From assembly GCF_022828475.1 (NCBI RefSeq), contig NZ_CP059557.1, positions 6,681,470 through 6,745,469 on the forward strand: a stretch of 64,000 nucleotides of DNA. The letters run 5' to 3'. The DNA comes from Saccharopolyspora gloriosae (GTDB taxonomy: Bacteria > Actinomycetota > Actinomycetes > Mycobacteriales > Pseudonocardiaceae). A program made the translations under genes and the position numbers. The notes below the pieces were generated by a model. The model saw only the letters and a program-made list of their open reading frames with translations, searched no databases and was not told the DNA's origin. The stretch's first letter is position 1. The number at the start of each line of letters is the position of its first letter. This document shows, in pieces, positions 2,889 to 61,284 of the stretch.

Positions 2889-3173
2889 AGCGGCAAAGCC
2901 CGCGACCAGCGGACGAAGCAAGGACCGCCTCGCGGCGAACCGTGCTTTTAGCGACGAAGCCCGCGAAGGGCGAGCGAAGCCCCGCCTGCCTCGCGGCCGA
3001 AGGCCGTGCCTTGCGGCGAAGCCGTGCCTGGATGCGCGTCAGCGCATAGCCCACGTCACAAAGCCGACCACCGGCGGGTTCTCAGTTGGTCTCTCGCGAG
3101 GACAGCTTTTTCCCTCGTGGCGGAGCCACTAGGGAAAAAGATCCCGCAGCGAGAGACCAACTGAGGTTCCGCC
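2889..3173. repeat. Intergenic covarying-hairpin element, copy A
   Basis: The structured core is 3073-3173: GGCGG/CCGCC outer pairs, a GTT/GTT internal loop, then a perfect 17-bp stem (3081-3097 with 3149-3165). The apical hairpin is a second near-perfect stem, CTTTTTCCCT/AGGGAAAAAG (3106-3115, 3131-3140), capped by GTGGC-GGA-GCCAC. The left part (2889-3072) is made of GCGAAGCC/GGCCGAAGGCC-like units shared with copies B and E. The element fills the gap between two convergent genes and ends 24 bp beyond the clpB stop codon. See the findings for the comparison of copies. Confidence 0.8.
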
Positions 3174-3197
3174 ACCCGACCCCCCAAGCAGAAGGCG

Positions 3198-5780
3198 TCA
3201 ACCAGCCCGAACGACGAGAGCCGAGTTGTCGTCGGCTGTGTCGACCTGGACTTTGTCACCGTCGCGCACTTCGCCCGCGAGCAGCTGCTTCGCCAGTTGA
3301 TCGCCGATGGCCGACTGCACGAGGCGCCGCAGCGGACGGGCGCCGAAGACCGGGTCGAAGCCGTTGAGCGCCAACCAGTCCCGGGCCGCGGGCCGCACGT
3401 CCAAGGTCAGTCGCCGCTGGCTGAGCCGCTGCGCCAGCCGCTCCACCTGAATGTCCACAATGGATGTCAGCTCCGCGGTGGTCAGCGAGCGGAACACCAC
3501 CATGTCGTCGAGCCGGTTCAGGAACTCCGGCTTGAACTGCTGGCGCACCACCGAGAGCACCGCGTCGTCGCGTTGCTGCTCGGACAGGTTCGGGTCCGCG
3601 ATGGCCTGCGACCCGAGGTTCGAGGTGAGCACCAGGATCGTGTTGCGGAAGTCCACCGTGCGGCCCTGCCCGTCGGTGAGCCTGCCGTCGTCGAGCGCCT
3701 GCAGCAGCACGTCGAACACGTCGGGATGCGCCTTCTCCACCTCGTCGAACAGCACCACCGAATAGGGCCTGCGCCGCACCGACTCGGTGAGCTGGCCGCC
3801 CTGGTCGTAGCCGACGTAGCCGGGCGGGGCGCCGACCAGGCGGGCCACCGAGTGCTTCTCGGAGTACTCGCTCATGTCGATGCGGATCATCGCCCGCTCG
3901 TCGTCGAACAGGAACCCGGCGAGCGCCTTCGCCAACTCCGTCTTGCCGACGCCGGTCGGGCCGAGGAACAGGAACGAGCCGGTCGGCCGGTCGGGGTCGG
4001 CGACGCCCGCGCGGGTGCGCCGCACCGCGTCGGACACCGCGCGCACCGCCTCGCCCTGGCCGACGACGCGGCCTTCCAACTCGTCTTCCATGCGCAGCAG
4101 CTTCGTCGTCTCGCCTTCGAGCAGCCGCCCGGCGGGGATGCCGGTCCAGGAGCTGACCACGTCGGCGACGTCGTCAGGCGTGACCTCCTCCTGCAGCATC
4201 GCCTTGCGCTCGGTCTGCGCCTCGGTGGCGGTGGCGAGTTCCTTCTCCAGCGCGGGGATGCGGCCGTAGCGCAACTCGGCGGCCTTGCCGAGGTCGCCGT
4301 CGCGTTCGGCGCGGTCGGATTCGCCGCGCAGCTGTTCGAGCTGCGTCTTGAGGTCGCGGACCTTGTCGATCGACTCCTTCTCGCCCTGCCAGCGCGCGGT
4401 GAGCTCGGAGAGCTGTTCGCGCCGGTCGGCGAGCTCGCCGCGCAGGGTGGCGAGCCGTTCGACGGAGGCGACGTCGGCCTCCTTGGCCAGCGCCATCTCC
4501 TCGATCTCCAGGCGGCGCACCGCGCGCTCCACCTCGTCGATCTCCACCGGCCGCGAGTCGATCTCCATGCGCAGCCGGGACGCGGCCTCGTCGACGAGGT
4601 CGATGGCCTTGTCGGGCAGGAACCGAGCCGTGATGTAGCGGTCGGAGAGCGTCGCGGCGGCCACCAGCGCGCCGTCGGTGATCCGCACGCCGTGGTGCAC
4701 CTCGTAGCGCTCCTTGAGCCCGCGCAGGATCGCCACGGCGTCCTGCGGGCTCGGCTCGCCGACCATCACCTGCTGGAAGCGGCGTTCCAGCGCGGCGTCG
4801 GTCTCGATGTGCTCGCGGTACTCGTCGAGCGTGGTCGCCCCGACCATGCGGAGTTCGCCGCGCGCCAGCATCGGCTTGATCATGTTCCCGGCGTCCATGG
4901 CGCCTTCGCCGGTGGCACCGGCGCCGACGATGGTGTGCAGCTCGTCGATGAAGGTGACGACCTCGCCCGCGGAGTCGGTGATCTCCTTGAGCACCGCCTT
5001 GAGCCGCTCCTCGAACTCGCCGCGGTACTTCGCGCCCGCGATCATCGAGCCGAGGTCGAGCGCGACGACTCGCTTGCCGCGCAAGGATTCCGGCACGTCA
5101 CCGGCGACGATGCGCTGCGCGAGGCCTTCGACGATGGCGGTTTTGCCGACCCCGGGTTCACCGATGAGCACCGGGTTGTTCTTGGTCCGCCGGGACAGCA
5201 CCTGCACGACGCGGCGGATCTCGGAGTCACGGCCGATCACCGGGTCCAGGTCGCCGTTGCGGGCGCGGTCGGTGAGGTCCTGGCCGTACTTCTCCAGCGC
5301 CTTGAAGGTGCCTTCCGGGTCCGGGCTGGAGACCCGCGCGGAGCCGCGCACCTTGGCGAACGCCTCGCGCAGCGCGTCGGGTGTGGCGCCGTGCTTGCGC
5401 AGCAGGTCGCCGACCTGCCCGCCTTCGGCGGCGAGTCCCACCATCAAGTGCTCGGTGGAGACGTAGTCGTCGCCCATCTCGGTCGCGAGGTGCTGGGCGT
5501 GCGTCACCGCCTTGAGCGCGTCCCGGGACAGCTGCGGCGGGGAGACCGTGGATCCGGAGGCGGCGGGCAGTGCGTTGATCAGCGTCTCCACCTCGCGGCG
5601 GATCTCCGCCGGATCGGCCTCGACCGCCGTGAGCAGCGGTGCGGCGATGCCGTCGCCCTGTGCGAGCAGGGCGCCGAGCAGTCGGGCCGGACCGACGTCC
5701 GGGTTGCCCGCCACCGTGGCGGCCTGCGCCGCCGAGGAGATCGCCTGCTGGGTCTTGGTCGTCGGGTTGAAAGCGTCCAT
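3198..5780 (-). CDS. clpB: ATP-dependent protein disaggregase ClpB (Hsp104 family)
   Basis: ClpB extracts polypeptides from aggregates and hands them to DnaK-DnaJ-GrpE, encoded 17 kb away in this window. The 860 residues show the normal order: Clp N domain (about 1-145), first AAA+ module with Walker A GEPGVGKT at 207-214, the middle coiled coil (about 400-520), a second AAA+ module with GPTGVGKT near 605, and a C-terminal D2-small domain. Length is as expected. The start is the ATG of MDAFNP, preceded by GGTGGAGGA; seven extra in-frame residues upstream are unlikely. A HAIR operator (5893-5913) lies 113 bp upstream, so HspR repression with heat induction is expected. Repeat copy A sits directly behind the stop codon. 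Confidence 0.97.
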
Positions 5781-5892
5781 TCCTCCACCTCGCCAGGGCA
5801 TCGCTCACGAGTCACCATGCTCGCGCCGAACCGCCGTCGTGCACACCCGCCACAAGCCCCGACTCGACGAGCTCAGGTCATCCGGCAGGAAA

Positions 5893-15348: not shown

Positions 15349-16262
15349 GAGCACTGCTCGTCGCGCGTCGTGCGGCACACGTCCCGGATGCCGTCGTAGA
15401 AGGAGTCGTCGACGCCGGTGAAGCCCCAGCCGTTCTGGTCGCCGATCGGGCATTCCCCGGCGCACAGCCCGCGTTCCCGCAGGCGATCGCTGTTGGCCTG
15501 CTCGCCCAGCGCCCGGGTGATCTTCTCCCGCAGCGCCGGATCGAGGTCGTCTGACAGCGCCACCGGGTCGGACGGGATCACCGGCGAGCGCCACAGCACT
15601 CGGAGCTCACCCGGCTTCAACTGGCCCTTCTCGATGAGCTGCCGGTCGACCATCGTGTCGTAGGCGAACCCGGCGTCGCAGTCACCGTGCGCGACGGCCA
15701 GCGCCGCCGCGTCGTGCCCGCCGCTGAAGACCGGCCGCGTGCCCTGCTCCGGGTCGACCCCGGCTTGCAGCAGCCCCGCCTTCGGGTAGAGGTGCCCGGA
15801 GGTGGAGGTCGGGTCGACGAAGCAGACCTGCTTGTCCCGGAAACCGGCGAGGTCGGTGATCCCGCTGTCCGGCCGGGTGATCGCGTAGGAGCGGTAGCCC
15901 GGCTCGACGCCCTTCTCCGCGACCTGCGCGGCGACCGCGGTGGCGGGCACGCCCTTGCTGCGGGCGAGCACGTAGGAGAACGGGCCGTACTTCGCGATGT
16001 CGATCTTCCCTGCGCGCTGACCCTCGATCACCGCGGCATAGTCGGTGGCCTGCTGGAACACGACCTTCTTGCCGGTCTCGGCGGCGATCAGGTCGATGAC
16101 GGGCTGGTAGTCCTGGCGCAGGCTCTGCGATTCCTCGCTGGGGATGGCGGCGAACACCAGCTCGTCATCCGAACCGGAGCCGCCGTCGGCGGCGCTCGGG
16201 CCGCACGCCGAGAGCAGCGCGGCGCAGGCGGTCAACGCCAGCATTCGGTGGATCTTGTTCAT
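15345..16262 (-). CDS. phnD: Phosphate/phosphonate-binding lipoprotein of the ABC importer
   Basis: The 305-residue substrate-binding protein has a lipoprotein signal peptide with lipobox LLSAC (Cys 20). The PhnD fold follows: IPSEESQSLRQDYQPVIDLI, then KYGPFSYVLARSKG, and the serine/threonine-rich phosphonate-binding loop VDPTSTSGHLYPKAGL. It sits on the outer face of the membrane and delivers ligand to PhnE/PhnC. A C-terminal extension with several cysteines (CAGEC, DVCRTTRDEQC) is unusual for PhnD and may form disulfides. The start overlaps the stop of the PhnX-like gene. The likely ligand is a 2-carbon aminophosphonate or derivative, judged only from the neighbouring enzymes. Confidence 0.93.
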   Translation of the reverse strand: MNKIHRMLALTACAALLSACGPSAADGGSGSDDELVFAAIPSEESQSLRQDYQPVIDLIAAETGKKVVFQQATDYAAVIEGQRAGKIDIAKYGPFSYVLARSKGVPATAVAAQVAEKGVEPGYRSYAITRPDSGITDLAGFRDKQVCFVDPTSTSGHLYPKAGLLQAGVDPEQGTRPVFSGGHDAAALAVAHGDCDAGFAYDTMVDRQLIEKGQLKPGELRVLWRSPVIPSDPVALSDDLDPALREKITRALGEQANSDRLRERGLCAGECPIGDQNGWGFTGVDDSFYDGIRDVCRTTRDEQCS

Positions 16263-18057: not shown

Positions 18058-18132
18058 GGCGACGAGCCTGCGGTCCGGCGACCAATGCGCCGTGGACCGA
18101 TGGGGAACCCGCGGTGAACGAGCCCGAAATCT

Positions 18133-46060: not shown

Positions 46061-46086
46061 ACCCGGACACCCAAGCAACAAGAGCC

Positions 46087-46800: not shown

Positions 46801-46836
46801 AGGAGACCAGTATCGCAAACCCGCCCGGCCGGTCGG

Positions 46837-47406: not shown

Positions 47407-47628
47407 GGCCCACCTATCTGCTGTTGGGAACTCACGAGAACCGCTGTGGCGGTCGTCGTGGCGCATGCACCTCAGCGGCGTTGGTGTGGAAACACGCGTC
47501 CTTACATATGCATTACCACACTTCTCGCGTTCACGTGAAGTTTTCGATCATAGTTGTGAATCATTACATAACGGACTCGTTCGAGTCCTCAAGTCGACAG
47601 CGCGACCGGAAGGGGGTGAAGTGGAGGT

Positions 47629-48096: not shown

Positions 48097-48116
48097 CGGC
48101 GCCCTCGAAGTCTCGA

Positions 48117-48508
48117 CAACGAAGCCGTACCGCTGCCAAGAGCGGCGAAGCCCTACCCTGCGACCGAATGCCGTGCCACGCGGCGCAGCCGTGCCTTGCG
48201 GCGCAGCCGTGCAGTCGGCGGCGAAGCCCGCCAAGGGCAAAGCGAAGCAAGCCTGCCTCACGGCCGAAGGCCATGCCTTGCGGCGAAGCCGTGCCTTGCG
48301 GCGAAGCCGTGCCTTCCGGCCGAAGGCCATGCCCTGCGGCGAAGCCGTGCCGGTATGCGCGCAGCGCACAGCCCACGCACGCAAAACGACCACCGGCGGG
48401 TTCTCAGCGGACTTCTCGCGAGGACAGCAGCCCGGCCCCAAATTTCGCCGTGTATCGGACATACATCAGAAATGGATCCCGCAGCGAGAAGGCCGCCGAG
48501 GTTCCGCT
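48117..48508. repeat. Intergenic covarying-hairpin element, copy E, with expanded 18-bp tandem units
   Basis: Core about 48394-48508. Left arm CTCAG-CGGACTT-CTCGC (48403-48419) pairs with GCGAG-AAGGCCG-CCGAG (48484-48500) with one mismatch in the 7-mer. The apical hairpin is the second type: ATTTC, TGTAT-CGGAC-ATACA, GAAAT. The left module is the longest copy; units GCCTTGCGGCGAAGCCGT stand head to tail at 48275-48292 and 48293-48310, with variants at 48193-48210, 48311-48330 and 48331-48348. No minus-strand gene is recognised just right of it, unlike the other copies. Confidence 0.75.
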
Positions 48509-48585
48509 ACCCGGACACCCCAGCAACAAGAGCCCTGGAAGTAATCACTAAAGACGACCTTCCACGCACCACACCAACCACAGAT

Positions 48586-48709
48586 CGAGCCAGGGGAAGG
48601 TTCTAAACCAACCTTCCATCCCCACACGCCAAGCCAGGGAAGGCCCTAAAACCCACGTCCACACGCCAAGCCGAACAAGACTCCAAAACCCCCACCCACA
48701 CGCCAAGCC
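48586..48709. repeat. Degenerate tandem repeat, 37-bp period
   Basis: CACACGCCAAGCC recurs at 48623-48635, 48660-48672 and 48697-48709, exactly 37 bp apart, with less similar spacers (AAGGCCCTAAAACCCAC, CAAGACTCCAAAACCCC). A weaker unit precedes them. From here to 49092 I see no gene; minus-strand frames such as 48548-48853 translate to Trp/Gly-rich repeat sequence. Confidence 0.6.
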
Positions 48710-49092
48710 GTGGGCGTTTCTGAAGAAGTCCGGAAAGCACAGGGCCCGGGCCATCCCCCGAATGACAGCCCGGGCCCTCCCCCGTCCCGACCGCCGGCGC
48801 CCCCGAGCGCTAATGCAGTCGGTCGATTCTGTTGTGCCGTACGGCCTTCGCACCCGCTGGCGCGTTGACCGTGCCGGAGGTGTCGAGCCAGGCTCGGCAC
48901 CTTGGTCTCTGATCTGCCACGACTAGTCCACTGTGTCCGGACCGGTGACCGATAGGTTGCGGCCTGCCCGGAATCCGGTCGGAACTGTGATCACGGCTCG
49001 ATCTTGCCGAGATCCTATCTGCTGGCGTGATCAGCCTCTCCAGCGGGATGGGTAACGGCGCGACGGTTCGCGCCGTCCCGCTCCGTGCCGGT

Positions 49093-49818
49093 TCAGGCGT
49101 CGCGCCGGTGCACTACGGCGGCCGCGACTCCGAGCACCGCGAACGCGATGACGGCGAAGTAGGCCAGCGATGCCCACGGCCCCAGCGGCGAGTTTCCGCC
49201 CATGAGGTCGGATTGCAGGAAGCGCGATGCCGCCACGAACGGCATCCAGTCCACGAGGTCCTCCCCGATGTTCGGCACCAGCCCGAGGAGCCGTTCCACC
49301 AGCAGGGACCACACGATCAGCAGGGTCACCGCGCCCGCGGATTGGCGCAGCAGCGCGCCGACGCCGACGGCGAGCACCGCGGACAGCGCGAACAGCGGTC
49401 CGACACCGACGATCTGGCGCCATTCGCCCGCGGTGTCGATGGCCAGTTCCGGTCCGGCGGCGAACGCCTGGGCCACGCCCCAGGAGCCGAACGAGGCGAT
49501 CTCACCGACCACGAACGCCAGTGCCGCGACGACACCTGCTTTCGCGACCAGCACCGCGACCCGGTTGGGCGCGGCTTGGAAGGTGGCTCGGATGGTGCCG
49601 AAGCGGTATTCGGTGGTCACGGCCAGCGCCGCGAGCACCAGCACGACCATCAGGCCGAACTGGTAGCCCATGAGCGCTTGGTCCACCGTGATGCCTTCGT
49701 CGGCGGAGAGGCCCATCATCGCGGCGAAGCCGATGGTGAGCGCGAGTGCGGTGACCGAGCACCACCAGGGTGATCGGGTGGAGAACAGCTTGATGCGTTC
49801 CACGGCGAGCAGCGTCAT
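49093..49818 (-). CDS. ABC-2-type transporter permease
   Basis: The 241-residue protein has six hydrophobic helices and the ABC-2 loop motif ALAVTTEYRFGTIRATFQAAPNR after helix 2, which contacts the ATPase. The ATG overlaps the stop codon of the ATPase gene upstream (49815-49818), so the two form one exporter. Substrates of such small heterologous pairs are often peptides or drugs; unknown here. Nothing recognisable follows downstream for about 0.5 kb except repeats. Confidence 0.9.
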   Translation of the reverse strand: MTLLAVERIKLFSTRSPWWCSVTALALTIGFAAMMGLSADEGITVDQALMGYQFGLMVVLVLAALAVTTEYRFGTIRATFQAAPNRVAVLVAKAGVVAALAFVVGEIASFGSWGVAQAFAAGPELAIDTAGEWRQIVGVGPLFALSAVLAVGVGALLRQSAGAVTLLIVWSLLVERLLGLVPNIGEDLVDWMPFVAASRFLQSDLMGGNSPLGPWASLAYFAVIAFAVLGVAAAVVHRRDA

Positions 49819-50764
49819 CGGGCGTCCTCCCCGGCGGTGGCGAGCACGCCGCCGAAATCGGTCTGGTACTCCACGGCTTGGCTGGTGAGCTGCATGAACG
49901 CTTCTTCCAACGAGCCTTGCTGCGGAGCGAGTTCGTGCAGCACGAGCTGGTGCGCGGCGGCGAGTTCACCGATCTGGTCGGTTTCGGCACCGGTGACGAC
50001 GATGGTGTCCGGTTTCGCCGCGTCGAACGGGAGCACGGTGCGGCCTTCGACGGCGAGCAGTTCGCGCAGCCGGGCGGCGTGCGGGGAGCGGACCTTCAGC
50101 GATCCGGTGCCGGCGCCCGCCACGAATTCCTCGGTGCTGCACTGGGCGATCAGTTCGCCTTTGCCGACGACGACGAGGTTTTCAGCGGTCAGCGCCATTT
50201 CGGACAGCAGGTGGCTGGAGACGAACACGGTGCGGCCTTCGTCGGCGAGTTGCCGCATGAACCGGCGGATCCAGTGAATGCCCTCCGGGTCGAGTCCGTT
50301 GACGGGTTCGTCGAACAGCAGGATCTTCGGGTCCCCGAGCAGCGCGGCGGCGATGCCGAGGCGCTGCGACATGCCGAGCGAGAAGCCGCCCGCACGGCGC
50401 TTGGCCACTGCGGTGAGCCCCACCATCTCGAGCACTTCGTCGACGCGGCTCATCGGGATTCGGTTGGACCGCGCGAGCCAGCTCAGGTGGGCGTGCGCGG
50501 ATCGGTTCGGGTGGACCCACTTGGCGTCGATCAACGCTCCGACGGTGCGCAGCGGTTCGGTGAGCTCGTGGTAGTCCTTGCCGTCGACGCGGACCGTTCC
50601 GGCGGTGGGGCGGTCCAAGCCGAGGATCATGCGCATCGTGGTGGACTTGCCCGCACCGTTGGGACCGAGGAATCCGGTCACGGTGCCGGGCTGGACGGTG
50701 AACGACAGGTCGTTGACCGCGACCGTCGATCCGTAGCGTTTGGTGAGGCGACAGCCTCGATCAT
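49815..50764 (-). pseudogene. ABC transporter ATP-binding protein, frame broken near the start
   Basis: From 50681 down the frame encodes a normal DrrA-type ATPase: Walker A GPNGAGKSTT, signature FSLGMSQRLGIAAALLGDP, Walker B ILLFDEPVNGLDP, switch His in FVSSHLL. The missing N terminus is present in another frame from the ATG at 50764, with a GGGGAGAG site. Adding one base near 50750 would restore LTKRYGSTVAVNDLSFTV in frame. I therefore read this as one intact gene with a single-base deletion, probably a sequencing error, like several neighbours. A shortened product starting near 50681 would lack the A-loop. It pairs with the permease at 49093. Confidence 0.85.
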
Positions 50765-50969
50765 GGTCTCTCCCCTTGCAGGCGGTCCTCTCGGCGGTGC
50801 TCCGAGCGACGAGAGGAAACTCTGCCGCACTGCTCCGGTCGAGTGCCTCAGTCGTCCGGCCAGCGCGCTACGCCTATCGGCCAAGTTCTCGCGGGCTCGG
50901 CTCCTCCGCGCGAACGAATCACCGAGCGGCCAGGTCAGCGTCCTGGGCGGGTCGTGTTCGAGCGACGGT

Positions 50970-51766
50970 TCACGGGAACCAGCGGGCGAGGGCGAGGGCC
51001 GCGCCGTCCTCGGTGACGGGCGGCGTCACTTCGGTCGCGGCCGCGCGCACTTCGGCCGGGCCTGTCCCATGGCGACGCTGTGCGCGCCCAGCGCAGCATC
51101 TGCACGTCGTTGGTGCCGTCGCCGGCGGCGAAGGTGTCTCGGCCGCCACCCCGAGTTCGGTGCGCAGCTTCTCCAGCGCGGAGCCCTTGGTCACTCCGGC
51201 GGGCACCAGCGTCACCCACGGCTCGTAGTGGTCGATGGTCACGGTGCAGCCGGGCAGTTCCACCCCGGCGAGCGCGTCGGTGACTTCTTCGGGTCGTGGC
51301 CTTCCCAGTTCGCGATGAGTCGCGGCACCGGTGCGGCGAACAGTTCGTCCAGGTCGGCGAGCCGCTGCGGACCGTGCAGCTGGTATTCGCGGAAGGGGCT
51401 GGTGACGAGGCTGCCGGTGCCGATCTGCTCGGCGGCGTAGATCGCTCCCGGCAGCAGCGAGGTGAGCCGCGCGTGCACCGGCGCCGGGTCGAAGGTCTCC
51501 ACCGCGAGGGCGGCTCCGGTGGAGGCGTCGAGGGTGACCGCGCCGTTCGAGCAGAGCGCGACTCCGCCGGTCAGCCCCAGTTCGTCGAGCACCGGCAGGG
51601 TACCGAGCATGCTGCGCCCGGTGGCGATCACCACGTGCGCGCCGGACGACGCGACGCGGCGGACGGCTTCGCGCACCGGCGCCGAGATGGTCTGCGGTTC
51701 GGGGTCGAGCAGCGTTCCGTCCACGTCGAGCGCGACGAGCCTGGGTTTCCATGCGGCAGCGGGCAC
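50970..51766 (-). pseudogene. Cof-type HAD phosphatase, interrupted by several frame changes
   Basis: The start is intact: LVALDVDGTLLDPEPQTIS (motif I) and VVIATGRSMLGTLPVL (motif II). Homology then passes through three frames: EEVTDALAGVELPGC and YEPWVTLVPAGVTKGSALEKL in one, TFAAGDGTNDVQMLRWA (motif IV) in the next, then back to TEVTPPVTEDGAALALARW before the stop. Four added single bases (near 51305, 51142, 51085 and 51060) would rebuild a normal protein of about 265 residues. Cof-type enzymes dephosphorylate sugar phosphates or flavins. It lies between the ABC exporter and the response regulator on the same strand. Confidence 0.8.
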
Positions 51767-51828
51767 GCCGCCCAGGCTAGCCGTTCACCAGCACGGACGT
51801 ACTGCCCCGGCGACACGCCTCACGCCGG

Positions 51829-52483
51829 TCACCGTTCGCCGAGCCGGACCAGTCCGGTCTCGTAGGCGACGATCACGGCCTGCACCCGGTCACGGACGCC
51901 GAGCTTCGCCAGCACCCGGCCGAGGTGGGTCTTCACCGTGGCCTCGGAGACGTGCAGCGACTCGGCCAGTTCCTGGTTGTTCAGCCCTTTTCCCACCAGC
52001 GCCAGCACTTCTCGTTCCCGCTCGGTCAGCACGTCCAGCGCGGAACGGTCGCGGCGGCCCGTGTCGGAGGTGTCCAGGAACCGTTCCAGCAGTCGCCGGG
52101 TGACGCTGGCGCGACGACGGCGTCGCCGGTGGCGACGGAGCGCACCGCGGTCACCAGGTTCTCCGGCGGGATGTCCTTGAGCAGGAATCCGCTGGCTCCA
52201 CCGCGCAGCGCGGCCAGCGCGTACTCGTCGAGGTCGAAGGTGGTGAGCACCAGGACTTTCGCGTCGGTGTCGGCGAGGATCCGCCGGTGGCCTCGATGCC
52301 GTCCAGCACCGGCATCCGCACGTCCATCAGCACCACGTCCGGGTGGACCTGCCGGGCGATCCGCACGGCGTGGGCACCGTCTCCGGCTTCGCCGACGACT
52401 TCGAGGTCCGGGTGGGCGTCGAGCACCATGCGGAACCCCATGCGCATCAGCTCCTGGTCGTCGACGAGCAGCACTCGGATCAT
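51829..52483 (-). pseudogene. NarL/LuxR response regulator, two frame changes
   Basis: The receiver starts normally ([20 protein letters not shown]) with phospho-acceptor in [14 protein letters not shown]. The frame is lost near 52287; [21 protein letters not shown] and [12 protein letters not shown] continue in a second frame, and LTEREREVLALVGKGLNNQELAESLHV with the rest of the LuxR domain in a third, after a change near 52120. At both points the expected CCC is written CC. With two restored bases the protein is about 219 residues and normal. It is the likely partner of the kinase at 54276-55473, with a GT39-like gene between. Confidence 0.85.
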
Positions 52484-52587
52484 GGCCTCGAGGGTAATTT
52501 CGACGCCCCCTCGGTTGGAGCCGTTCGGCGAACGAATCTGTGCGCTGGAGGGAAAACCTTCCACATCCGCCGCGGGGTCCGTTCAGA

Positions 52588-54112
52588 TCACTCGGACGGG
52601 ACTCCTGCCGCGGCCGGTGGCGCGGTGGTCGAGGTCGGGTCGTGCTTCATTCCGACGTGCCACAGGTCGTGCCACAGCCGGTCCCACGGGCGCTTCGGGT
52701 CCGCCACCTCCCACACCGGGGTGCCCTCGTAGTGCGTCGGCAGCGAAGTGTCCACTGTGTCCACTCGGCGCACGGAGCCGAAGTGGTGGAGGAGGAACTC
52801 GCGGTCCGATCCCACGTAGATCGCGCTCCGGGTGCCGTCGGCGGTCTGCCGAACGGCCAGAACCCGCGGCTCGCGCTGTGGACCGCGACGTCGCCGTGGT
52901 GGCGCACCGCGCTCGCCACCCAGTAGTCCTCGTGATGACCGGCGCCCGGTGTTCCCGCGCGTTGCGCTCGACGATCGCGGTGAGTTCCGGCCAGCCCACA
53001 CTGCCGGTGCCCACCAGGTCGAAGCGCGGGATGAGCGCGACCGGCAGCACCGGCAACGTCGCGAGGACCGCCACCAGCGCGGAAACCCCGTAGACCCGCG
53101 CGGACAGCCACCGCGCCCGAAACTCGACGGCTCCGACCGCGAACAGCAGCCCGTAGAAACCCGCCAGGTAGTACGGCCGCGATTCCGTCAGCGCCACCAG
53201 CCCGGTGACTCCGATGATCGTCCAGGCGAGGAAGCGGTACGGCCGCAGCGCCGGTGCGCGCAGCAGCCGCCAGAAACCGAGGCACAGCAGCACGCCGCCC
53301 GGAATTCCCGCGCACAGCACCACCGACGGGATCAACAACGGGCCGAAGGAGCTCTCCTGCTCGATCGCTTCGCTCATCGCGAGCTGCGGCCACCCGTGCG
53401 CCGCCTGCCACCACAACGTCGGCGCGGCGGTCAGCAGGGCCACCGCCGCGCCCGCCCACAGCAGCGGCGTGCGCAGCAGCGACCGCGGCCCGGCGCACAG
53501 CAGCACCACGCCCAGCACCAGCCAGAGGACCGGGATCAGCAGCTTGACCTGCATCGCGAGGGCCGTGCAGGCTCCGGCGGCGAACAGCGGCCAGTCCTGG
53601 CGAACGCCCTGATCGCGCATTCGCACCCAGCGGACCAGCAGCCACAGCACCACGGTCCACAGCACCGGGTCGAAGGAGACGGTCGCCAGCATGTGCCCGC
53701 CGCCCAGGGTCTGTCCGGCGACCGCCCACGCCCCGCCCGCCAGCAGCTGTGCCCGGCGATCACCGCCGAGCTCCCTCGCGAGCAAAGCCGTCACCACCAC
53801 CCCCGCACCGGCGGCGACGGCGGGGAGCAACCGCAACGCGAGCAGCGAACCGGGGAAGACGGTGTCGGCTAGCAGCGCGATCAACGGCACCAGCGGCGGC
53901 TGGTCCACGTATCCCCAGTCCAAGTGGTGCCCGGCGGCGAGGAAGTACAACTCGTCGGCGTAATAGCCGTAGCGCCCGCTCGCGAGCAGCAGCACCGCGG
54001 TGACGGCCGTCGCGATCAGCAGCAGCGGGCCGGTGGCGAGCTCGGGCACCCCGGAGCGGGTCGGTGCCGCGACGGGCGGCGCGGCGGAACGTTCGGCGAG
54101 TGCGGTCGACAT
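52588..54112 (-). pseudogene. GT39/ArnT-like membrane glycosyltransferase, two frame changes near the C terminus
   Basis: The N-terminal 390 residues are intact: acidic first loop YGYYADELYFLAAGHHLDWGYVDQPPLVPL, which holds the catalytic Asp/Glu of PMT/ArnT-type enzymes, and about eleven helices. After [12 protein letters not shown] the frame changes near 52932 ([20 protein letters not shown]) and again near 52875 ([35 protein letters not shown]), running to the stop at 52588. Two restored bases give a protein of about 510 residues, normal for the family. It uses polyprenyl-phosphate sugars outside the membrane. It lies between a sensor kinase gene and its regulator. Confidence 0.82.
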
Positions 54113-54275
54113 GACGACTTCCCAGGGCCGGTCGGGCGCGGACCGGCCCAGACTCCGGCGTGGGAGGCTGCACTCGCGTCGGCCTGAGCGTTGATTCCGG
54201 CCTCGCCGCAGGTCCCGCCCCGGTGGGACGCGGCGTCATCCCGCCGTCGCAGTCCGATCGACCGCGTCAGCGGGA

Positions 54276-55473
54276 TCAGGCGGCGTCGGAGTGCGGCAGC
54301 GGCAGCACTGCCAGCACCCGCCACCCGCCTTCCGGCCGGGGGCCAGCGGTCAGGGTGCCGCCGTACAACGCGGCCCGCTCCCACATTCCGGCGAGCCCGC
54401 CGCCCGCGGAGATCACGTCAGCCGACTCCGGGGCCGTCGTCCCCGTCGTTCCGTCGTCGCAGATGTCGACCGTGACGACGCGGTCGTCGACGGTCACCCA
54501 CACCACCGTCGCGCCGCCACCGTGCTTGAGCACGTTGGTCAGCGCTTCCTGCACGATCCGGTGCACCGCCAGGCCGAGACCCGTCGGCAACTCCTCGACG
54601 TTCCCCGTGAGTTCGAGCCGCACCGGCAGGTCGGGACGCCGCACGCCGTCGACCAGTTCGCGCAGGCTCGCCGCCGCGGGCTGCGGAGCCCACTGCCCCT
54701 CCTCCAGCGGATCCCGCAGCACGTCCAGCAGGCCGCGCAGTTCGGCGAGCGCCGTCCGGCCGGTGGTCCCGATCGCGCGGATCGCCCGGATGGCCTGCTC
54801 CGGATCGGCGCGCAGGGTGTAGGCCGCGCCGTCGGACTGCGCGATCATCACGGTGAGCGAGTGCGCGAGCACGTCGTGGATCTCGCGGGCGATGCGGTTG
54901 CGCTCCTCGGCGACGGCCAGCCGCGCCTGCCGATCGCGCTCGGACTTCGCTCGCCGCAAGCGTTCCTCCACCTCCCGCAGGTGCGCGCGGCGGGCGGCGA
55001 CGACCTCGGCGAAGGCCCAGGCCAGCGCGGTCACCACCAGGTAGAACGACGTCCCCCACAACGCCGCGACGAAACGGCTCGGAATTCGGGAGCGGCCCGA
55101 CGGTGACCAACGCGGCCAGCACGATCAGGTTGAGCCCCACCGCCAGCACGGCGCCCAACCTCCGCTTCCCGGTGGTGATCAGGCCGTACAACACCAGGAA
55201 CGCGGCCACCTGTCCCGGGGTGTACTGCAGCTTCGCCCCCAGGACGAAGGTCGTTCCGAACGCCCCGGCGAGGACCCCGGCCGTGGCCGACGCCGGCGCC
55301 CGGCGGCGAATCGCGACCGGGCCGCACGCGAGCACTTCGATGAGGACCAGCACGGGCCACGGCACGCCGGGCACGATGGGTTCGGAGATCAGGAAGACGA
55401 CGAACAACAGGCCCGCTGCGGCGCCGTCCAGCACCGCCGAGTGCTCTCGCGTCCACCCGCTCCGTTTCCGCAC
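54276..55473 (-). pseudogene. Sensor histidine kinase (HisKA_3 type), one frame change
   Basis: The first 130 residues form membrane helices (SAVLDGAAAGLLFVVFLI, AVLAVGLNLIVLAALVTVG). Near 55070 the frame changes; in the new frame FYLVVTALAWAFAEVVAAR leads to the phosphorylation segment AREIHDVLAHSLTVMIAQSDG and the ATPase motifs CDDGTTG and GGLAGMWERAALYGG. The shift here is +1 (or -2), unlike the neighbours. Restored, the kinase has about 400 residues. The GTG at 55473 gives the start RKRSGW; an upstream GTG at 55497 is the alternative. Partner regulator: 51829-52483. Confidence 0.82.
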
Positions 55474-55572
55474 CGAACCAGCGTAGGCGCGGATCACCGC
55501 AGATTCGTCATCCTCGCGGCGCTTCCGCGTCCACCTGGAGTCGTAGGCGCGACCCCACTCGGGTAGTGCGGA

Positions 55573-55983
55573 TCAGCTTGTGCGCGGGTGGGATTGCGCG
55601 TCGAAGTGGTCGCTGGTGCGGGACGCGATGTCCTCTTGGAGGGCCTTCTCCCGCTGCTTGGAGCGCAGGCGGGCGAGGATCCAGATGGTGATGCCGTGCG
55701 CCGCCGCCAGCACGAGCAGCAGCATGCCGATGCGGGTGATCACGACGTAGAACGGGTCGTCGCCACCTACCTTGACCGTGGACAGCAGGGCGACCACGCC
55801 GAGCGCCGTCAGGTGGAACAGGACGGTGACCAGTTGGTTCACCGAACCCGCGACCTTCCCGTCCGGGTAAGCCGCGGCCAGGTAGGTCGTGCCGTCGCGG
55901 CGCAGCAGCCAACCGTCGACGAAGACGAGCACGATGCCGATGATCAGGAAAGCGAGGGTGTGTCCGGTTTCCACGGGTATCAC
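55573..55983 (-). CDS. Four-helix membrane protein of unknown function
   Basis: A 136-residue protein with four hydrophobic segments (about 8-25, 45-65, 75-95 and 98-112) and a charged cytoplasmic tail (RLRSKQREKALQEDIASR). Short loops such as RRDGTTYLAAAYPDG connect the helices. I do not recognise the family; it is of the type often annotated as conserved actinobacterial membrane protein. The GTG at 55983 gives a short leader before helix 1; a GTG at 55974 is equally possible. It is monocistronic. Confidence 0.65.
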   Translation of the reverse strand: MIPVETGHTLAFLIIGIVLVFVDGWLLRRDGTTYLAAAYPDGKVAGSVNQLVTVLFHLTALGVVALLSTVKVGGDDPFYVVITRIGMLLLVLAAAHGITIWILARLRSKQREKALQEDIASRTSDHFDAQSHPRTS

Positions 55984-56111
55984 CGAATTCCGTTGTCGAG
56001 TGCGCGGTGCGCAGGTCCGTGCACTCGCCGGGTCCCCACCTTGATCTCCGCACAAACGATGTTCGCGGTTGTGCACTCGGACGGCCCAACGCGCGCCGGG
56101 GATTCGTCGCC

Positions 56112-56182
56112 TCGCCATCGGAGCAGTGACCACGCACGCAGGCCGCCGGCGGGTTCTCCGCGCAGTGCCGCTCGGCGGGGCC
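56112..56182. repeat. Partial copy (G) of the intergenic covarying-hairpin element
   Basis: GAGCAGTGACCACGCACGCAG and CCGCCGGCGGGTTCTC match the left module and left outer stem of copy C. The right half is not recognisable: after CTCCGCGCAGTGCC the sequence is GC-rich and lacks the complementary arm. It lies in the 305-bp gap upstream of the dynamin gene, with no other feature there. Confidence 0.5.
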
Positions 56183-56288
56183 ACTTGCGATGGCCCCCGC
56201 AGTTCACCCGGCCACCAACGCGGAACGACCGCAAAAGGGCTCCGTGACAGGATGGCCGCGATCACAGGCCCAGTTCGGGGAGGCAGGG

Positions 56289-57841
56289 GTGAGTTCGGCG
56301 GGCGAGCAGCAGCACTCGGCGGGTCCGCTGTCGGCTTCGGTCGCGCGGATGTGCACCGGGCTGCGCGCCCAGGTCTCCGAGCACACGGCGGCGGGCTTCG
56401 ACGAGGTGCTGCGCCGGTTGTCGGCACCGCTGCAGGTGGCGGTGGTGGGCCGGATCAAGTCCGGCAAGTCGACCTTGGTGAACGCGCTGATCGGCAGGCG
56501 GGTCGCGCCGACCGATGTCGGCGAGTGCACCCGGCTGGTGACCCGCTTCCAGTACGGCACGGTCGATCGGGTCGAAGTGGTCTTCCACGACGGAACCAAG
56601 CAGGCCGTTCCGTTCGACGCCGACGGCGGAATCCCGAGCCGGCTCGGCGTGGAACCGGAGCAGGTGTCGCATCTGGAGGCGTACCTGACCAACGCCGTGC
56701 TGCGCGACCTCACCGTGATCGACACTCCCGGTCTCGGTTCGCTGGACGCCGACTCGGTGGCGCGGACCGAGCAGCTGCTCGGCGCCCGGGAGCCGAACGA
56801 CGATCTCGATCCGGTGTCGCAGGGTGCGGTCGCCGGGCGGAGGCGGTGGTCTACGTGGTGACGCAGGCGGTGCGCGCCGACGACCAGCACGCGCTGAACG
56901 TGTTCACCGCGGCCACCGCGGGCCGGGAGGCCGGGCCGGTGAACGCGATCGCCGTGCTGAACAAGGCCGACACCGTCGAACCGGACTCGGTGCCCGGTTC
57001 CGACGGCGACGTGTGGCGGGCGGCGGCGGCGCTGGCCGCGGAGCAGGCGGCGCTGCTCGGGCCGCGGGTGGCGGAGGTGCTGCCGGTGATCGGGCTGCTC
57101 GCGGAGACCGCGGAGACCGGCGGGTTCACCTCCGCCGACGCCGAGGTGCTGCGCGCGTTGACCGAGCTGGACGAGGCGACCCGCCAGACGATGCTGATGT
57201 CCGCGGACCTGTTCACCAGTTGGGACTGCGAGATTCCCGAGCGCGACCGGTCCCGGCTGCTGGAGCGGCTGGACCTGTACGGGGTGCGGCGGGCGCTGGC
57301 GGAGCTCGACGCGGATTCGGCGATCACGGCGGGTGCGCTGCGCCGGGCGCTGCTGGAGTGCTCCGGGCTGGCGGGGGTGCTGAGCAGGCTGGACGAGGTG
57401 TTCCGGGCTCGCGCCGACGGGATCAAGGCCGCCGCCGCGCTGGGCTCGGTGACGGCTCTCGCGCACGCCTCCGGTGATGCGGGCGAGCGGCAGCGAGTGC
57501 ACGACGCGATCGAGGTGCTGCTGACTCGGCCGGAGGCGCACCAGCTGCGGTTGCTGGAGGCGTTGACGCTGGTCGTCTCGGGTTCGGTGGAACTTCCTGA
57601 CGATCTCACGGAGGAGGTGCTGCGGATCGGCGGCAGCACCGATCCCGGTGCGCGGCTGGGGCTGGCGGGGCGGCCGCAGCACGAACTCGTCCAGTTCGCG
57701 ATGGAACGGGCCAACTGGTGGCGTTCGTACGCCTCGTTCGGGGCGACGCCGGCGCAGAGCCGCATCGCGTTCGTGGTGCACCGGGCTTATTTCCTGATCT
57801 GGCAGCAACTTCAGCCAGGACAGGTTCGACTACCCGGCTGA
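56289..57841 (+). pseudogene. Dynamin-like GTPase (IniC-like), one frame change
   Basis: The N-terminal part encodes the GTPase start: G1 VVGRIKSGKSTLVNALIG, G2-region threonines, and G3 VIDTPGLGSLDADS. Near 56835 one G is missing from a G run (GCCGGGCGG where GCCGGGGCGG would keep frame). The second frame continues with AEAVVYVVTQAVRADDQH, G4 AIAVLNKADTVEPDS and a long helical stalk to the end QLQPGQVRLPG. Restored length is about 517 residues, close to mycobacterial IniC (about 490). No strong membrane segment is seen, as in IniC. GTG start with GGGGAGG upstream. A GrpE-like gene follows 52 bp later. Confidence 0.82.
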
Positions 57842-57893
57842 TCATCGACCACCTGGCGGTGCTCAGCCCTCGGCGAGCGGAGAGGACTCGGCG

Positions 57894-58352
57894 GTGCGGG
57901 ACTGGCTTCGACGGCGATCTTCACCCGATCGTGGAACCGAGCGCGAGGCCACCACGTCGGAACCGGGCGCGGACGAACCCGCGGAGCCGGACGCCGAGTT
58001 GGGGGCTGACATGACCGCCGTGCACATCGACCCGCTCGACCGGGCACGCTCGGAACGCGCCACGTTGATCAGATTGTGCTTGTACGCACTGGACCGAGCT
58101 CGCAGCAACGGCGTCGCCGAACGGCTCGCGGACGGACTCGACGACATCGGCGTGGCCCGGCTGCGCCCGGACGGGCAGCCGTTCGACCCGGCATGGCACG
58201 AAGCGGGCGGCACGGTCCCCACGGATGATCCCGCCTTGGACGGGATCATCGCCGAGACCGAGGTGCTCGGATTCGCCGACCGCGACCAGGTGCTGCGGGC
58301 GCCGATCGTCACCGTGTACCAGCTGCGGTCGGGAACATCCGGAACGAGCTGA
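57894..58352 (+). CDS. GrpE-like small protein of the dynamin locus
   Basis: A 152-residue protein. The second half (LYALDRARSNGVAERLADGL, DDIGVARLRPDGQPFDPAWH, FADRDQVLRAPIVTVYQLRSG) resembles the beta-wing part of GrpE, including an FDP-x-x-H motif like FDPSVHEA of true GrpE; the long coiled coil is mostly missing. Such proteins are found next to Hsp70-like and dynamin genes in actinobacteria. The housekeeping GrpE is encoded at 23818-24540, so this is a specialised relative. GTG start with GGAGAGGA. Its end overlaps the antisense small membrane-protein gene by 44 bp. Confidence 0.7.
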   Translation: MRDWLRRRSSPDRGTEREATTSEPGADEPAEPDAELGADMTAVHIDPLDRARSERATLIRLCLYALDRARSNGVAERLADGLDDIGVARLRPDGQPFDPAWHEAGGTVPTDDPALDGIIAETEVLGFADRDQVLRAPIVTVYQLRSGTSGTS

Positions 58353-58503
58353 CCCACTGCCGGATGCTCATCCGGTTTCGTTCGGGCCGCGCAGCGGACT
58401 CCTGGCGTTCGGTGAGGTCGGGCAGCACGGAGCTGATCGACATCAGGAGCAGGACGGCGAACGCGAGGATCAGGCCGATTGCCGTACCGATGGTGGTGAG
58501 CAT
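58309..58503 (-). CDS. Small single-pass membrane protein
   Basis: A 64-residue frame with one hydrophobic N-terminal helix (TIGTAIGLILAFAVLLLMSIS) and a charged tail (DLTERQESAARPERNR). A near-ideal AAGGAGG site lies 8 nt before the ATG, which argues for expression despite the small size and the 44-bp tail-to-tail overlap with the GrpE-like gene. Function unknown. Confidence 0.6.
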   Translation of the reverse strand: MLTTIGTAIGLILAFAVLLLMSISSVLPDLTERQESAARPERNRMSIRQWVSSFRMFPTAAGTR

Positions 58504-59126
58504 GTTGTGCCTCCTTGTCGGTGCCTTGGCCGCTGGTTCCGCGGTGTGACATAAGAATCGCCGGTCACCGGGGGTTCGCGGATCAGCCGACAGGCTCGTC
58601 GGGCCTACTACCTCTGGTCAGTGCCCTGCCACGGCACACCTGGCCGATCGGCCGAGGCGCACACCCGAATCCCGGCCCCACCCGACTCGGCCCGAACACC
58701 CCCTTCAACGGGCGGGAGAGGCAGAAGAGGCACTCACCTGCAACCCGACCTGGCGTGAATCGCGCCTTTGACCAGTAGGAACAGGCGCAGGAGCACGCAC
58801 CCGAGAGCCGGAGTGAACGGCCCCTTCGACCAGTAGGAGTCGGTGAAGGAGGCATTGACCTGGGTGTCGGTGTGGAGTGGACGGCGCCGTCGACCTTCGG
58901 GGCGCTGGAGGGGGATTGACCTCGGCGGGGTGCGGGGGTGCGATCGGAGGTACGGGCTGGGCTGGAGGGCTGCGGCGAACGGGAGCGGTCGCACCGCACG
59001 ATTAGGTGGTCATCGATCGGCCCGGTGCGACGCCGCGTGCGGCAACCGGGTCATGAGCTGGTCGAGTCGGGTGGACCGCGCGTGAACCCGGCCGCGGCCG
59101 GGGATGCGGGCGGTACATTTCACGCC
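58504..59126. other. Gene-free interval between the GrpE-like gene and the second dynamin gene
   Basis: No coding frame with a plausible start is seen on either strand. The interval contains the half-copies at 58753-58845 and Gly/Arg-rich GC repeats near 58860-58990. It ends in the hairpin at 59127-59172. Confidence 0.6.
58753..58845. repeat. Two half-copies of the GTGAACGG repeat
   Basis: GTGAATCGCGCCTTTGACCA (from about 58755) and GTGAACGGCCCCTTCGACCA (from 58813), each followed by GTAGGA(G/A). They are similar to the pair at 35494-35586 and to the left arms of the hairpin array at 34001-34231. The following GTGAAGGAGGCATTGACC is reminiscent of the terminator stem at 7690-7724. Confidence 0.5.
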
Positions 59127-59172
59127 CGCGCCGGATCCCACCGGCTCCAGCGGTGAGATCCGCACCGGCGCG
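59127..59172. promoter_or_regulatory. Long hairpin just upstream of the second dynamin gene
   Basis: CGCGCCGG (59127-59134) pairs with CCGGCGCG (59165-59172); inside, GGATC pairs with GATCC and CACCG with CGGTG, with a 3-nt bulge. It ends 30 bp before the start codon and would lie in the 5' leader. It may be an mRNA structure controlling expression or a terminator of upstream transcription. Confidence 0.5.
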
Positions 59173-59201
59173 GCACCCGATCCAGTGACAGGAGCGTGCG
59201 C

Positions 59202-61070
59202 ATGACTTCGGCCGGCCCGGCGACCGGGGTGCCCGTGGCGGCCACCGCCTTGCCCCAGCAGGTCAAGCAGACCAGGGACAAGCTGTTCGCGCTGTTACGG
59301 GAGGCCGCGCCGTCCTCGGCGGACTGGGTGGACGAGGTGCGGCGTTCCCGGCCGCGAGTGCCGAGCGTGGTCGTGGTCGGCGAGACGAACCGGGGCAAGA
59401 GTTCCCTGGTGAACGCGCTGATCGACAGCCCTGGACTGTCCCCTGTGGATGCTTCGGTGGCGACGTCGACCTACCTGGAGTTCCGGCACGGTGAACAGTG
59501 GCGCGGGATCGCCTGCTATCCGGCCGAGCCGACGCCCGTCGAGTTCACCGTCGACGAGCTGTCGTCCTGGGCCTCCGCGCGCGGAGCGCTGCCCGTCGAC
59601 TCCCTGCCGCCCCGGCACCTGCGCATCGAGGCACCACTGGACACGCTCACCAAACTGACCATTGTGGACACTCCCGGCGTGGGCGGCCTGGACTCCATCC
59701 ACGGCGAACTCGCCGCCGAAGCCGCCTCCGCCGCCACCGCCCTGCTGTTCGTCGCCGACGCGTCCGCACCCTTCACCCGCGGCGAACTGGACTTCCTGCA
59801 CGGCGCGGCGGACCGGGTCGAGACCGTGGTGTTCGCGCTCGCCAAGACCGACCAGCACCGGGGCTGGCGACAGGTGCTGGAGGAGAACCGCAGGCTGCTG
59901 GCCGAGCACGCGCCGCGATTCGCGGACCTGCCGATCCACCCGGTCTCGGCGCGGATGCTGGAACTCGCGGCGCAGGCGCCGACCGAGCAGGCCGCCGTCA
60001 TGCTGCGGGAACGCTCCGGCGTGACCGAGCTGCGTTCCGCGCTGGAACAGCTCGTCGGCGGCCGGGCCGCGATGCTCGGCGAAGCGAACACGATGCGCGC
60101 GCTGTCCACCGTGCTCGGCGAGTTGACGGTGCGGCTCGCCGCCGAGCAGCGGGCGCTGACCGTGGGCGAGGACGAAGCCGAGACGCTGCGAGCCCGCCGC
60201 GACGAGCTCGCCGCGTCCCGGCGCTCCTCCACTCGCGGCTGGCAGCTGAAGCTGCGCGGGGAGATCCAGCGCACCCGCGTCGAAGCGGGTCACGAGGTGA
60301 CGCGCCAGATGCGGGAGGTGCAGAGCTGGTTCCGCCGCGCCATCGACACCGCCGAGCACGGCGCGCTCACCGCCCTGCCGCACCAGGTGGACACCGCGCT
60401 GCAAATGGTGTCGTCCCGGGTGTCGGCGCTGTTGTCGGCCCGGCTGGCGAAGGTGGCGGAGGTGTCCCTGGCGGAACTGTTCTCCGCCGAGGAACTCGAC
60501 GTGATCCGCTCCCAGTTCGCCCGCGGCGCCCAGACGCCCATCGCGCTGCGGCCGCCGGACAAGCGCGCACCGACCGCTGAGGACAAGCTGCTGGTGTTCA
60601 TGGGCATCTCCGGCGGCCTCGGCGTGGGTCGCGCGGCGGCGATGCCGCTGGCCGGGATCGGCGTGGGCGTGCTGAACCCGGTGGTGCTGCCGGTGACGAT
60701 CGTGCTGGGGCTCGGCGCGGGCTGGTGGATGGCGCGCACCCGCAAGCACGCCGCCGACAAGCAGCACCTCAAGCAGTGGCTCACCGAAGCCATCGCCGAC
60801 GCGCGATCAGCACTGGACCAGCTGGTGTCCGAGCAGCTCATCGAGGCCGAACAGCAGTTGTCGCTGGCCCTCGACGACGCGCTGGGCAGGCGCATCGAGT
60901 CGATCGAGGCGGAGCTGCGAGAGGTCGACAAGGCGCTGAAGATGGACGCCGCCGAACGCAGCCGCCGCTTGCACACCGCCGAGCAGCGCCTGGCCGAGGC
61001 CACCTCCGGCCGAGACCGCGCCGAACACCTCCTAGCCGCCATCCGCGGCCTCCGCGACCGTGCTGAGTAA
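59202..61070 (+). CDS. Dynamin-like GTPase (IniA-like)
   Basis: The 622-residue protein has a complete dynamin GTPase head: G1 VVVGETNRGKSSLVNALI near residue 58, G2 threonine in ASVATSTYLEF, G3 IVDTPGVGGLDS, G4 FALAKTDQ. A long helical stalk follows, then a pair of membrane segments (about 468-510, GVGRAAAMPLAGIGVGVLNP and VLPVTIVLGLGAGWWM) and a C-terminal coiled coil. This matches mycobacterial IniA (about 640 residues), which remodels membranes and confers tolerance to cell-wall drugs. The ATG is 7 nt after AGGAG. It forms a set with the IniC-like GTPase and GrpE-like protein upstream; an IniB-like partner is not seen. Confidence 0.85.
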   Translation: MTSAGPATGVPVAATALPQQVKQTRDKLFALLREAAPSSADWVDEVRRSRPRVPSVVVVGETNRGKSSLVNALIDSPGLSPVDASVATSTYLEFRHGEQWRGIACYPAEPTPVEFTVDELSSWASARGALPVDSLPPRHLRIEAPLDTLTKLTIVDTPGVGGLDSIHGELAAEAASAATALLFVADASAPFTRGELDFLHGAADRVETVVFALAKTDQHRGWRQVLEENRRLLAEHAPRFADLPIHPVSARMLELAAQAPTEQAAVMLRERSGVTELRSALEQLVGGRAAMLGEANTMRALSTVLGELTVRLAAEQRALTVGEDEAETLRARRDELAASRRSSTRGWQLKLRGEIQRTRVEAGHEVTRQMREVQSWFRRAIDTAEHGALTALPHQVDTALQMVSSRVSALLSARLAKVAEVSLAELFSAEELDVIRSQFARGAQTPIALRPPDKRAPTAEDKLLVFMGISGGLGVGRAAAMPLAGIGVGVLNPVVLPVTIVLGLGAGWWMARTRKHAADKQHLKQWLTEAIADARSALDQLVSEQLIEAEQQLSLALDDALGRRIESIEAELREVDKALKMDAAERSRRLHTAEQRLAEATSGRDRAEHLLAAIRGLRDRAE

Positions 61071-61130
61071 GCCGCGGAGGCTTCCCAGGTCCCGCTAGGA
61101 GACCACCAGAATGATCTTTCGTTCTTCTTC

Positions 61131-61284
61131 TTGTCAGCGGCGAAGCCGATGAGCAGTGACCAGCTTGAGCAAAAGGACCACCGGCGGGTGCTCAGCGGCC
61201 TTTTCGCGAGGACAACGATTTCGCCATGTATCGGACATACATCAGAAATCGATCCCGCAGCGAGAAGGTCGCTGAGATTCCGCT
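61131..61284. repeat. Intergenic covarying-hairpin element, copy F
   Basis: Core 61183-61284. Left arm CTCAG-CGGCCTT-TTCGC (61191-61207) pairs with GCGAG-AAGGTCG-CTGAG (61260-61276); the single 7-mer difference is a G-U pair. The apical hairpin is the second type, GATTTC, ATGTAT-CGGAC-ATACAT, GAAATC, nearly identical to copy E. The left module (TTGTCAGCGGCGAAGCCGAT, GAGCAGTGACC) matches copies C and D. It lies between convergent genes, 34 bp past the oxidoreductase stop codon. Confidence 0.8.

Follow-up and report, generated by a model that had tools for sequence, protein, structure and literature searches.

A repeated hairpin with a covarying stem in Saccharopolyspora gloriosae belongs to a MITE-like family and may function as RNA

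Six copies (A to F) of an intergenic palindrome lie dispersed in a 64,000-nucleotide (nt) stretch of the Saccharopolyspora gloriosae genome (contig NZ_CP059557.1, positions 6,681,470 to 6,745,469 of the forward strand; hereafter the window), sharing conserved segments and differing in a pair of 7-nt arms. The repeated hairpin is real, its stem covaries, and constraint on its structure is well supported. The hairpin does not stand alone but belongs to a family of ~235–255 bp resembling miniature inverted-repeat transposable elements (MITEs). Taken together, the six copies are probably the structured part of one such non-autonomous mobile element, found in a single bacterial family (which we take to be Pseudonocardiaceae), with an RNA hairpin as its likeliest role.

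All six copies were present where a previous sequence-only reading of the window had placed them, on the plus strand: A at 3073–3173, B at 45961–46060, C at 42391–42490, D at 19737–19828, E at 48394–48508 and F at 61183–61284. Between the conserved segments CTCAG and CTCGC (CTCGA in D, TTCGC in F), the left arms are TTGGTCT (A), CTGTCTT (B), TGGCTTC (C), TGAGCCT (D), CGGACTT (E) and CGGCCTT (F); those of B to F are as that reading had given them, while that of A had been read one base off register, as TGGTCTC. Its description of the right partners held throughout, with perfect complements in A (AGACCAA), B (AAGACAG), C (GAAGCCA) and D (AGGCTCA), one G-U pair in F (AAGGTCG) and one A-G mismatch in E (AAGGCCG). 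Plus-strand RNA folds of the six copies reached z-scores of -2.3 to -10.4 relative to shuffled sequences, the weakest being that of copy E, which 4 of 200 shuffles equalled; copy A folds into three stems, and the loop of copy D is degenerate. In line with that reading, which had recognised no named family, there were zero Rfam 15 matches to the element at the gathering score: over the window Rfam 15 returned only a tRNA, and around copy B two matches, both far under the gathering score.

Compensatory evolution of the stem, initially proposed from these six copies, is strongly supported by an alignment of 105 copies and by one further locus shared by two genomes. The alignment contains one copy per distinct arm pair, 83–87 nt long, without any pairing filter, and was taken from 342 hits after leaving out repeated arm pairs, other lengths and copies too near the end of a locus; since hits were found via the conserved segments (at most 5 mismatches in 28), intact copies are favoured among them. 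Under the structure of copy A, standard pairs filled 90.2% of 3960 cells, compared with 76.3% in shuffled and 41.6–49.1% in slid controls, and the covariation score was 0.377 (0.141 shuffled, at most 0.105 slid), while the plain count of pairs with a double change (20) was not above that of the shuffles (18.7). Double changes were seen in 18 of the 27 predicted pairs and are located in the arms (columns 11–17), the inner helix (mainly 32–37) and the apical helix (45–47); the inner and apical stems therefore covary too, beyond the outer stem to which the sequence-only reading had drawn attention. Three helices keep pairing as their letters change, and it is the folded shape itself that appears to be preserved.

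Because the shuffle control keeps no relatedness, an independent case was needed. A covariance model, which the sequence-only reading had suggested, was built from the 105-copy alignment (scoring copy A at 111.4 bits for 3076–3172) and searched in relatives with strict filters and a cut-off of E up to 1e-4; the matches found in genera g34 and g39 were absent from the model. One match was obtained in each of three g34 genomes (G067, G095 and G033). Those in G067 and G095 (loci L404 and L405) lie at the same place, behind a gene that we take, from its translation, to be gatB-like; the G033 match lies elsewhere. Over 98 nt, the G067 and G095 copies show four differences, which make up two compensatory pairs (T-A/C-G and C-G/T-A); when four changes were placed at random 400,000 times, two stem pairs were filled only 19 times. 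This copy, retained behind the same gene in two species of one genus, is perhaps domesticated.

Read on the strand given here (the reader strand), the structure is not symmetric. Over 38 pairs, 367 cells were G.T and 80 were A.C (172 vs 78 without two fixed wobble pairs, 138 vs 77 when column 14 was also left out), and the two fixed G.T pairs, at columns 3-99 and 5-97, were found in 97 and 98 of the 105 copies, respectively. The RNAalifold consensus energy was -42.6 kcal/mol on the reader strand vs -14.4 on the other, and in 86 of the 105 copies the single-sequence RNA energy of the reader strand was the lower one. A poor earlier alignment of 64 divergent copies, since discarded, had given a small strand difference (-5.7 vs -2.0), with the lower energy on the reader strand in 41 of the 64. 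The fixed G-U pairs and the one-strand consensus fold speak for a single-stranded, RNA-like function rather than a cruciform. Of the two possibilities named in the sequence-only reading, RNA or cruciform DNA, the balance is thus narrowed toward one strand, and a symmetric double-strand cruciform as sole function is disfavoured.

In this orientation, the whole unit consists of a left end, a first hairpin (hairpin 1), a linker of ~25–30 nt, the palindrome and a tail of 25–30 nt, the palindrome being formed by an outer helix (GGGTTCTCAG, the 7-nt arm and CTCGC), an inner helix and an apical helix. The sequence-only reading had missed that the palindrome forms the right-hand portion of a longer unit whose right end mostly points toward a stop codon. 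Hairpin 1 reads, for example, GCGGC-GAA-GCCG, or ATGTGC-GAA-GCACAT in copy B (45921–45935), ATGCGC-GTCA-GCGCAT in copy A (3032–3047; both sets of coordinates counted by hand) and TCAGCGGC-GCA-GCCGCTGA in copy C (42343–42361). The tail of copy A (3174–3197) leads to the TGA stop (minus strand, 3198–3200) of the open reading frame (ORF) at 3198–5801, and that of copy B (46061–46086) to the TAG stop of a minus-strand ORF ending at 46087; copy D begins 32 nt past a TGA stop, and the gene end facing copy E is 583 nt off. Two left types coexist in this genome: an older one (O, as in copy C), starting with a decayed terminal inverted repeat (TIR), and a younger one (Y), with arrays of mini-hairpins, to which copies A, B and E belong. 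These arrays (GTGCCTTGCGGCGAAGCC and variants, mostly with GAA loops) are of variable length and lie left of type Y copies at A (2900–3031, delimited by eye with an approximate left limit), B, E and many other loci; their stems also vary, and by eye their pairing is apparently kept. A group resembling copy E reaches further to the right (GAGCCCTGGAAGTAATCACTAAA..., containing repeated CACACGCCAAGCC modules); this extension runs from 48509 to ~49000 in the window, near 15800–15970 in locus L065, and is also seen in L025 and L030.

Comparison with relatives revealed sites with and without the unit. In a BLAST comparison of window positions 42001–62000, copy B was absent from genomes G120 and G137, where ~32 bp separate the flank matches vs 268 in the window; its mobile unit (45834–46090) was delimited from these empty sites and from repeated matches of ~245 bp elsewhere in both genomes. 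From aligned flanks, the site of copy C is occupied in G120, and G046, G079, G101 and G137 lack the unit there; at the site of copy F, the unit is missing from G046, G079 and G101, and G120 and G137 carry it inverted. Among 35 locus-by-genome comparisons with G120 and G137, 22 sites were occupied (15 in the same orientation, 7 inverted), nine were empty and four held no recognisable copy.

The ends of the unit are best defined in S. rosea, where six units of 235–237 bp are bounded by TIRs of ~17 bp (GTGCCTGTCTTTGAACT/GAGCCTGTCTTCGAACT), other units measuring 123 to 342 bp. Several S. rosea units are nested inside other copies; in loci L263, L265, L268 and L276, the insertion lies at a conserved CTGAG/CTCAG containing a TNA target. 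The 84 distinct TIR ends in loci L141 to L290 are preceded by TGA in 48 cases and by TCA in 25 (73/84 together), and the 83 S. rosea locus ends comprise 50 TGA, 26 TCA and 7 neither, 17 of the TGA being the exact stop codon of a called gene. Where both TIRs were present (27 S. rosea units), identical 3-bp flanks were seen in 15 (8 TGA, 7 TCA). Inside element copies of S. rosea we found a 962-bp insertion sequence (IS) with TIR GTGCCTGTCTTTGATCT, which encodes a 277-residue IS5-family transposase (nine matches of 99–100% over all 277 residues in the S. rosea genome); in the two IS copies compared, TGA was duplicated on both sides of one and TCA of the other. No close relative of this 277-residue transposase is encoded in the window's genome (best E 9.7e-10). 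That genome carries four copies of another IS (908 bp, 280-residue transposase, TIR GGGGTCCTTKCAGAATG), flanked on both sides by TTA in 4/4 copies, one of which sits within hairpin 1 of an element. Both transposases scored above the NF033580 cut-off (231 bits for that of the window's genome), and matches to PF01609 and PF13340 support an IS5-type DDE transposase. For the IS1031 group of the IS5 family, PMC12016507 gives TNA targets and the inverted repeat GAACCTGTCTAGTATCT; the target given in PMC4482050 for the bacterial IS5 transposons compared there is ANT rather than TNA. In the window's genome, type O ends resemble the end of the 908-bp IS (mean local score 16.8, vs 10.2 for random 55-mers). 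A match between the ends of the small element and an autonomous element of the same host is thus found in S. rosea, and in part in the window's genome. Judged from these ends, the carrier in S. rosea is a MITE-like element of IS5 type (IS1031-like). In one copy (L059:17224), the right tail is broken by an IS of another type (near 17220–18480), whose junctions apparently carry a TAGC repeat.

A MITE with a transposase had been the alternative explanation considered in the sequence-only reading, and it turns out to be largely true (empty sites, TIRs, T(G/C)A flanks, and IS5-family ISs whose ends match in S. rosea and are similar in the window's genome). However, mobility alone does not explain the covariation, because a DDE transposase requires TIRs only.

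The element is abundant and unevenly placed. The pattern CTCAGN7CTCGC occurs 256 times on the forward and 263 times on the reverse strand of the 6.88-Mb genome (one palindrome can yield a match on each strand), vs 15 and 24 for the reversed control pattern. A profile made from the six window copies and 30 fetched ones identified 71 non-overlapping copies, 62 of them full-length, in 1,264,000 bases (the window and 60 systematic 20-kb stretches of this genome). With gene neighbours assigned by our own codon-usage gene caller, 49 of the 62 full copies face a stop codon at their right end, and in 39 of these 49 the palindrome starts 10–46 nt past it. When both neighbours were called (n = 60), 24 copies had convergent neighbours, 33 had co-oriented ones (23 vs 10 for the two orientations, p = 0.035) and only three lay in divergent gaps, which make up 27% of gaps of at least 100 bp (p = 1e-5). 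One copy (L077, near 800–1050) lies ~100 bp upstream of a groEL-like gene (MAKELRFDRQAR).

These data suggest that the mobile unit survives mainly at gene ends, presumably because insertions in genes and promoters are lost; the T(G/C)A target may contribute by duplicating a TGA stop, although this effect did not reach significance. In transcripts that run through the element from its left side, an RNA hairpin would form and might act as a processing site or barrier, making insertion at a gene end tolerable, which would in turn help the element to spread; the arms would be free to change provided that they pair. We infer such an RNA role as the most likely one, as the best inference from the sequences rather than a demonstration.

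Several observations weigh against this reading. Twelve of the 27 units with two TIRs lack identical flanks (7 with one TGA and one TCA flank, 5 with neither). A called stop codon was present at one end in 8/27 S. rosea units; as the figure for extragenic T(G/C)A sites is 18% (p = 0.10), the stop-codon position is not significantly explained by the TNA target on its own. TGA is not enriched among the stops that copies face (41/49, vs 881/1023 genes), contrary to the idea of a stop-codon target. The likeness of older copies to the IS end in the window's genome is weak, with only 7/31 scoring at least 20 (random 0.3%), and type Y copies show no recognisable TIR or duplication. Finally, the wobble bias of the arms, which outside the genus was 66:15 over unique arm pairs and 30:14 without arm position 4, is absent within the genus (11:10 in the window's genome, 2:0 in G120, 2:5 in G137).

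The closeness to stop codons would also be expected of an intrinsic terminator (a hairpin with a T tract immediately after it), or another 3'-end element, that the host maintains behind its genes. Consistently with this possibility, where a site could be scored as either occupied or empty (31 comparisons), the relative had a copy in 22, although the copies differ, and a copy has been retained behind the gatB-like gene in two species. However, within window positions 42001–62000, terminator-like sites numbered 6 vs 7.4 in shuffles, two of them in copy B and none in C, E or F; loci L055, L065 and L067 have, by eye, a classical terminator ahead of the element; and 9/35 comparisons were empty in the relative. 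We regard a host-maintained terminator or other 3'-end element as rather unlikely.

A function of the hairpin as DNA, either as a cruciform or as a single-stranded hairpin bound by a protein in mobilisation or chromosome organisation, is also unlikely, and slightly more so. It would fit the very stable, near-symmetric palindrome and the lack of arm wobble polarity in the genus, and the type Y copies without recognisable TIRs mean that another route of end recognition may exist; moreover, G.T is the better tolerated mismatch in DNA. On the other hand, fixed G.T pairs and a one-strand consensus fold are not predicted by a double-strand cruciform, and the genome has no PF01797 (Y1) transposase, in a search limited to that HUH family.

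The arms themselves evolve in an unusual manner. Their length is nearly fixed (7 in 220 of 221 left and 147 of 150 right arms), and in 34 of the 44 type Y copies of the window's genome (those of modal length, including copies fetched by pattern) the per-site divergence was 0.433 in the arms, 0.000 in the constant stem, 0.046 in the loop and 0.118 in the flanks. In 101 pairs of copies from this genome, all 71 non-arm sites were identical and at least 8 of the 14 arm sites differed. Arm class was associated with 5 of 13 other polymorphic sites at shuffle p values of 0.01–0.05, and with none of the others. At orthologous sites, arms were identical in 0/22 occupied comparisons (G120 and G137), and at L065:2281 three different, perfectly paired arm sets surround one core in three species. 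Among the 15 orthologous pairs in the same orientation, arms and core showed no memory of the locus, and left parts were slightly more alike (0.793 vs 0.726, p = 0.003). We read this pattern as fast turnover of copies at preferred sites, in copy lineages that would be free to change their arms while pairing; in-place replacement by gene conversion may also lie behind the arm differences at orthologous sites. Arm-to-arm copying, in which the palindrome templates its own correction at replication with no selection on structure, would fit the 101 copy pairs that differ in their arms alone, and the G067/G095 locus, with two exact compensatory pairs and no further change in 98 nt, agrees with it. 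Yet the constant stem is invariant in the same 34 copies in which the arms diverge, and copying leaves the fixed arm length and the conserved wobble pairs unexplained, which makes it improbable as the source of the covariation.

A family of repetitive extragenic palindromes (REP/REPIN) mobilised by a RAYT (Y1) transposase can practically be dismissed: the copies are dispersed, extragenic, palindromic and present in hundreds, but PF01797 had no match in this genome although 5 of 14 control genomes were positive, and IS5-type ends are found instead. Such a REP/RAYT origin was accordingly rejected, as was carriage by a plasmid or phage, neither the plasmid nor the phage collection giving any match to the element.

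The exact pattern TTCTCAGN7CTCGCGAGGAC was found in 44 of 297 genomes and 13 of 46 genera of the bacterial family and, among 394 genomes drawn from the class, in the window's genome alone. Of 150 genomes drawn from the order, the covariance model matched 8, each of them in the same family. At least 120 stretches matched in named genomes, and the 80 matches listed all belong to Saccharopolyspora or Amycolatopsis bartoniae. In genus g39, loci L406 (G038) and L407 (G072) gave 26 and 27 covariance-model matches (27 candidates scored), with no occurrence of the exact pattern there. More tentatively, and as a possibility rather than an expectation, the element might harbour a new structured RNA family inside a MITE, with three strand-specific helices, present in several genera of one family close behind stop codons and with arm vocabularies that are largely species-specific; in one genus it would apparently be kept as a vertically inherited copy behind the gatB-like gene.

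The usual view of MITEs is that they are decayed transposon ends and fold only because they have TIRs. Here, it is the interior rather than the TIRs that is under detectable structural constraint, in several genera. With natural copies in the hundreds, and dozens of arm variants in each genome, the question of whether small bacterial repeats carry selected RNAs can be put directly to the test. The bacteria concerned include antibiotic producers, whose transcript ends the hairpin may shape, given that it lies near many of their gene ends.

Among known systems, no description of this element was found in the open-licence literature (top matches by title and abstract). REP/REPIN sequences with RAYT share with it the extragenic palindromes and the hundreds of copies, but the present unit is longer, has TIRs in S. 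rosea and comes without a PF01797 transposase in the genome. BOX, RUP and SPRITE of pneumococcus, Correia of Neisseria and ERIC are likewise small, dispersed, folded mobile repeats with nested insertions, although their sequences and hosts differ. According to PMC3049150 and PMC10969869, BOX overlaps the 3' end and supplies the stop codon in 36 annotated coding sequences, ERIC at the 3' ends of Yersinia genes alters transcript levels, and Correia transcripts are cut by RNase III. The words 'compensat' and 'covari' are absent from PMC3049150, and passages of PMC2267715 contained no mention of Streptomyces or Saccharopolyspora. The folds of BOX and RUP are described as having their TIRs hybridised, whereas the fold here is internal. 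The closest likeness is to MITEs of the IS5/IS1031 group of IS, with which the element shares TIRs (GAGCCTGTC/GTGCCTGTC), TNA flanks (TGA and TCA; TTA for the IS of the window's genome), an IS5_3 transposase (NF033580) and short units. Folded MITEs are already known, but this element is found mostly a short way past stop codons, recognisable TIRs are missing from its younger copies in the window's genome, and its interior has a conserved three-helix fold with compensatory changes.

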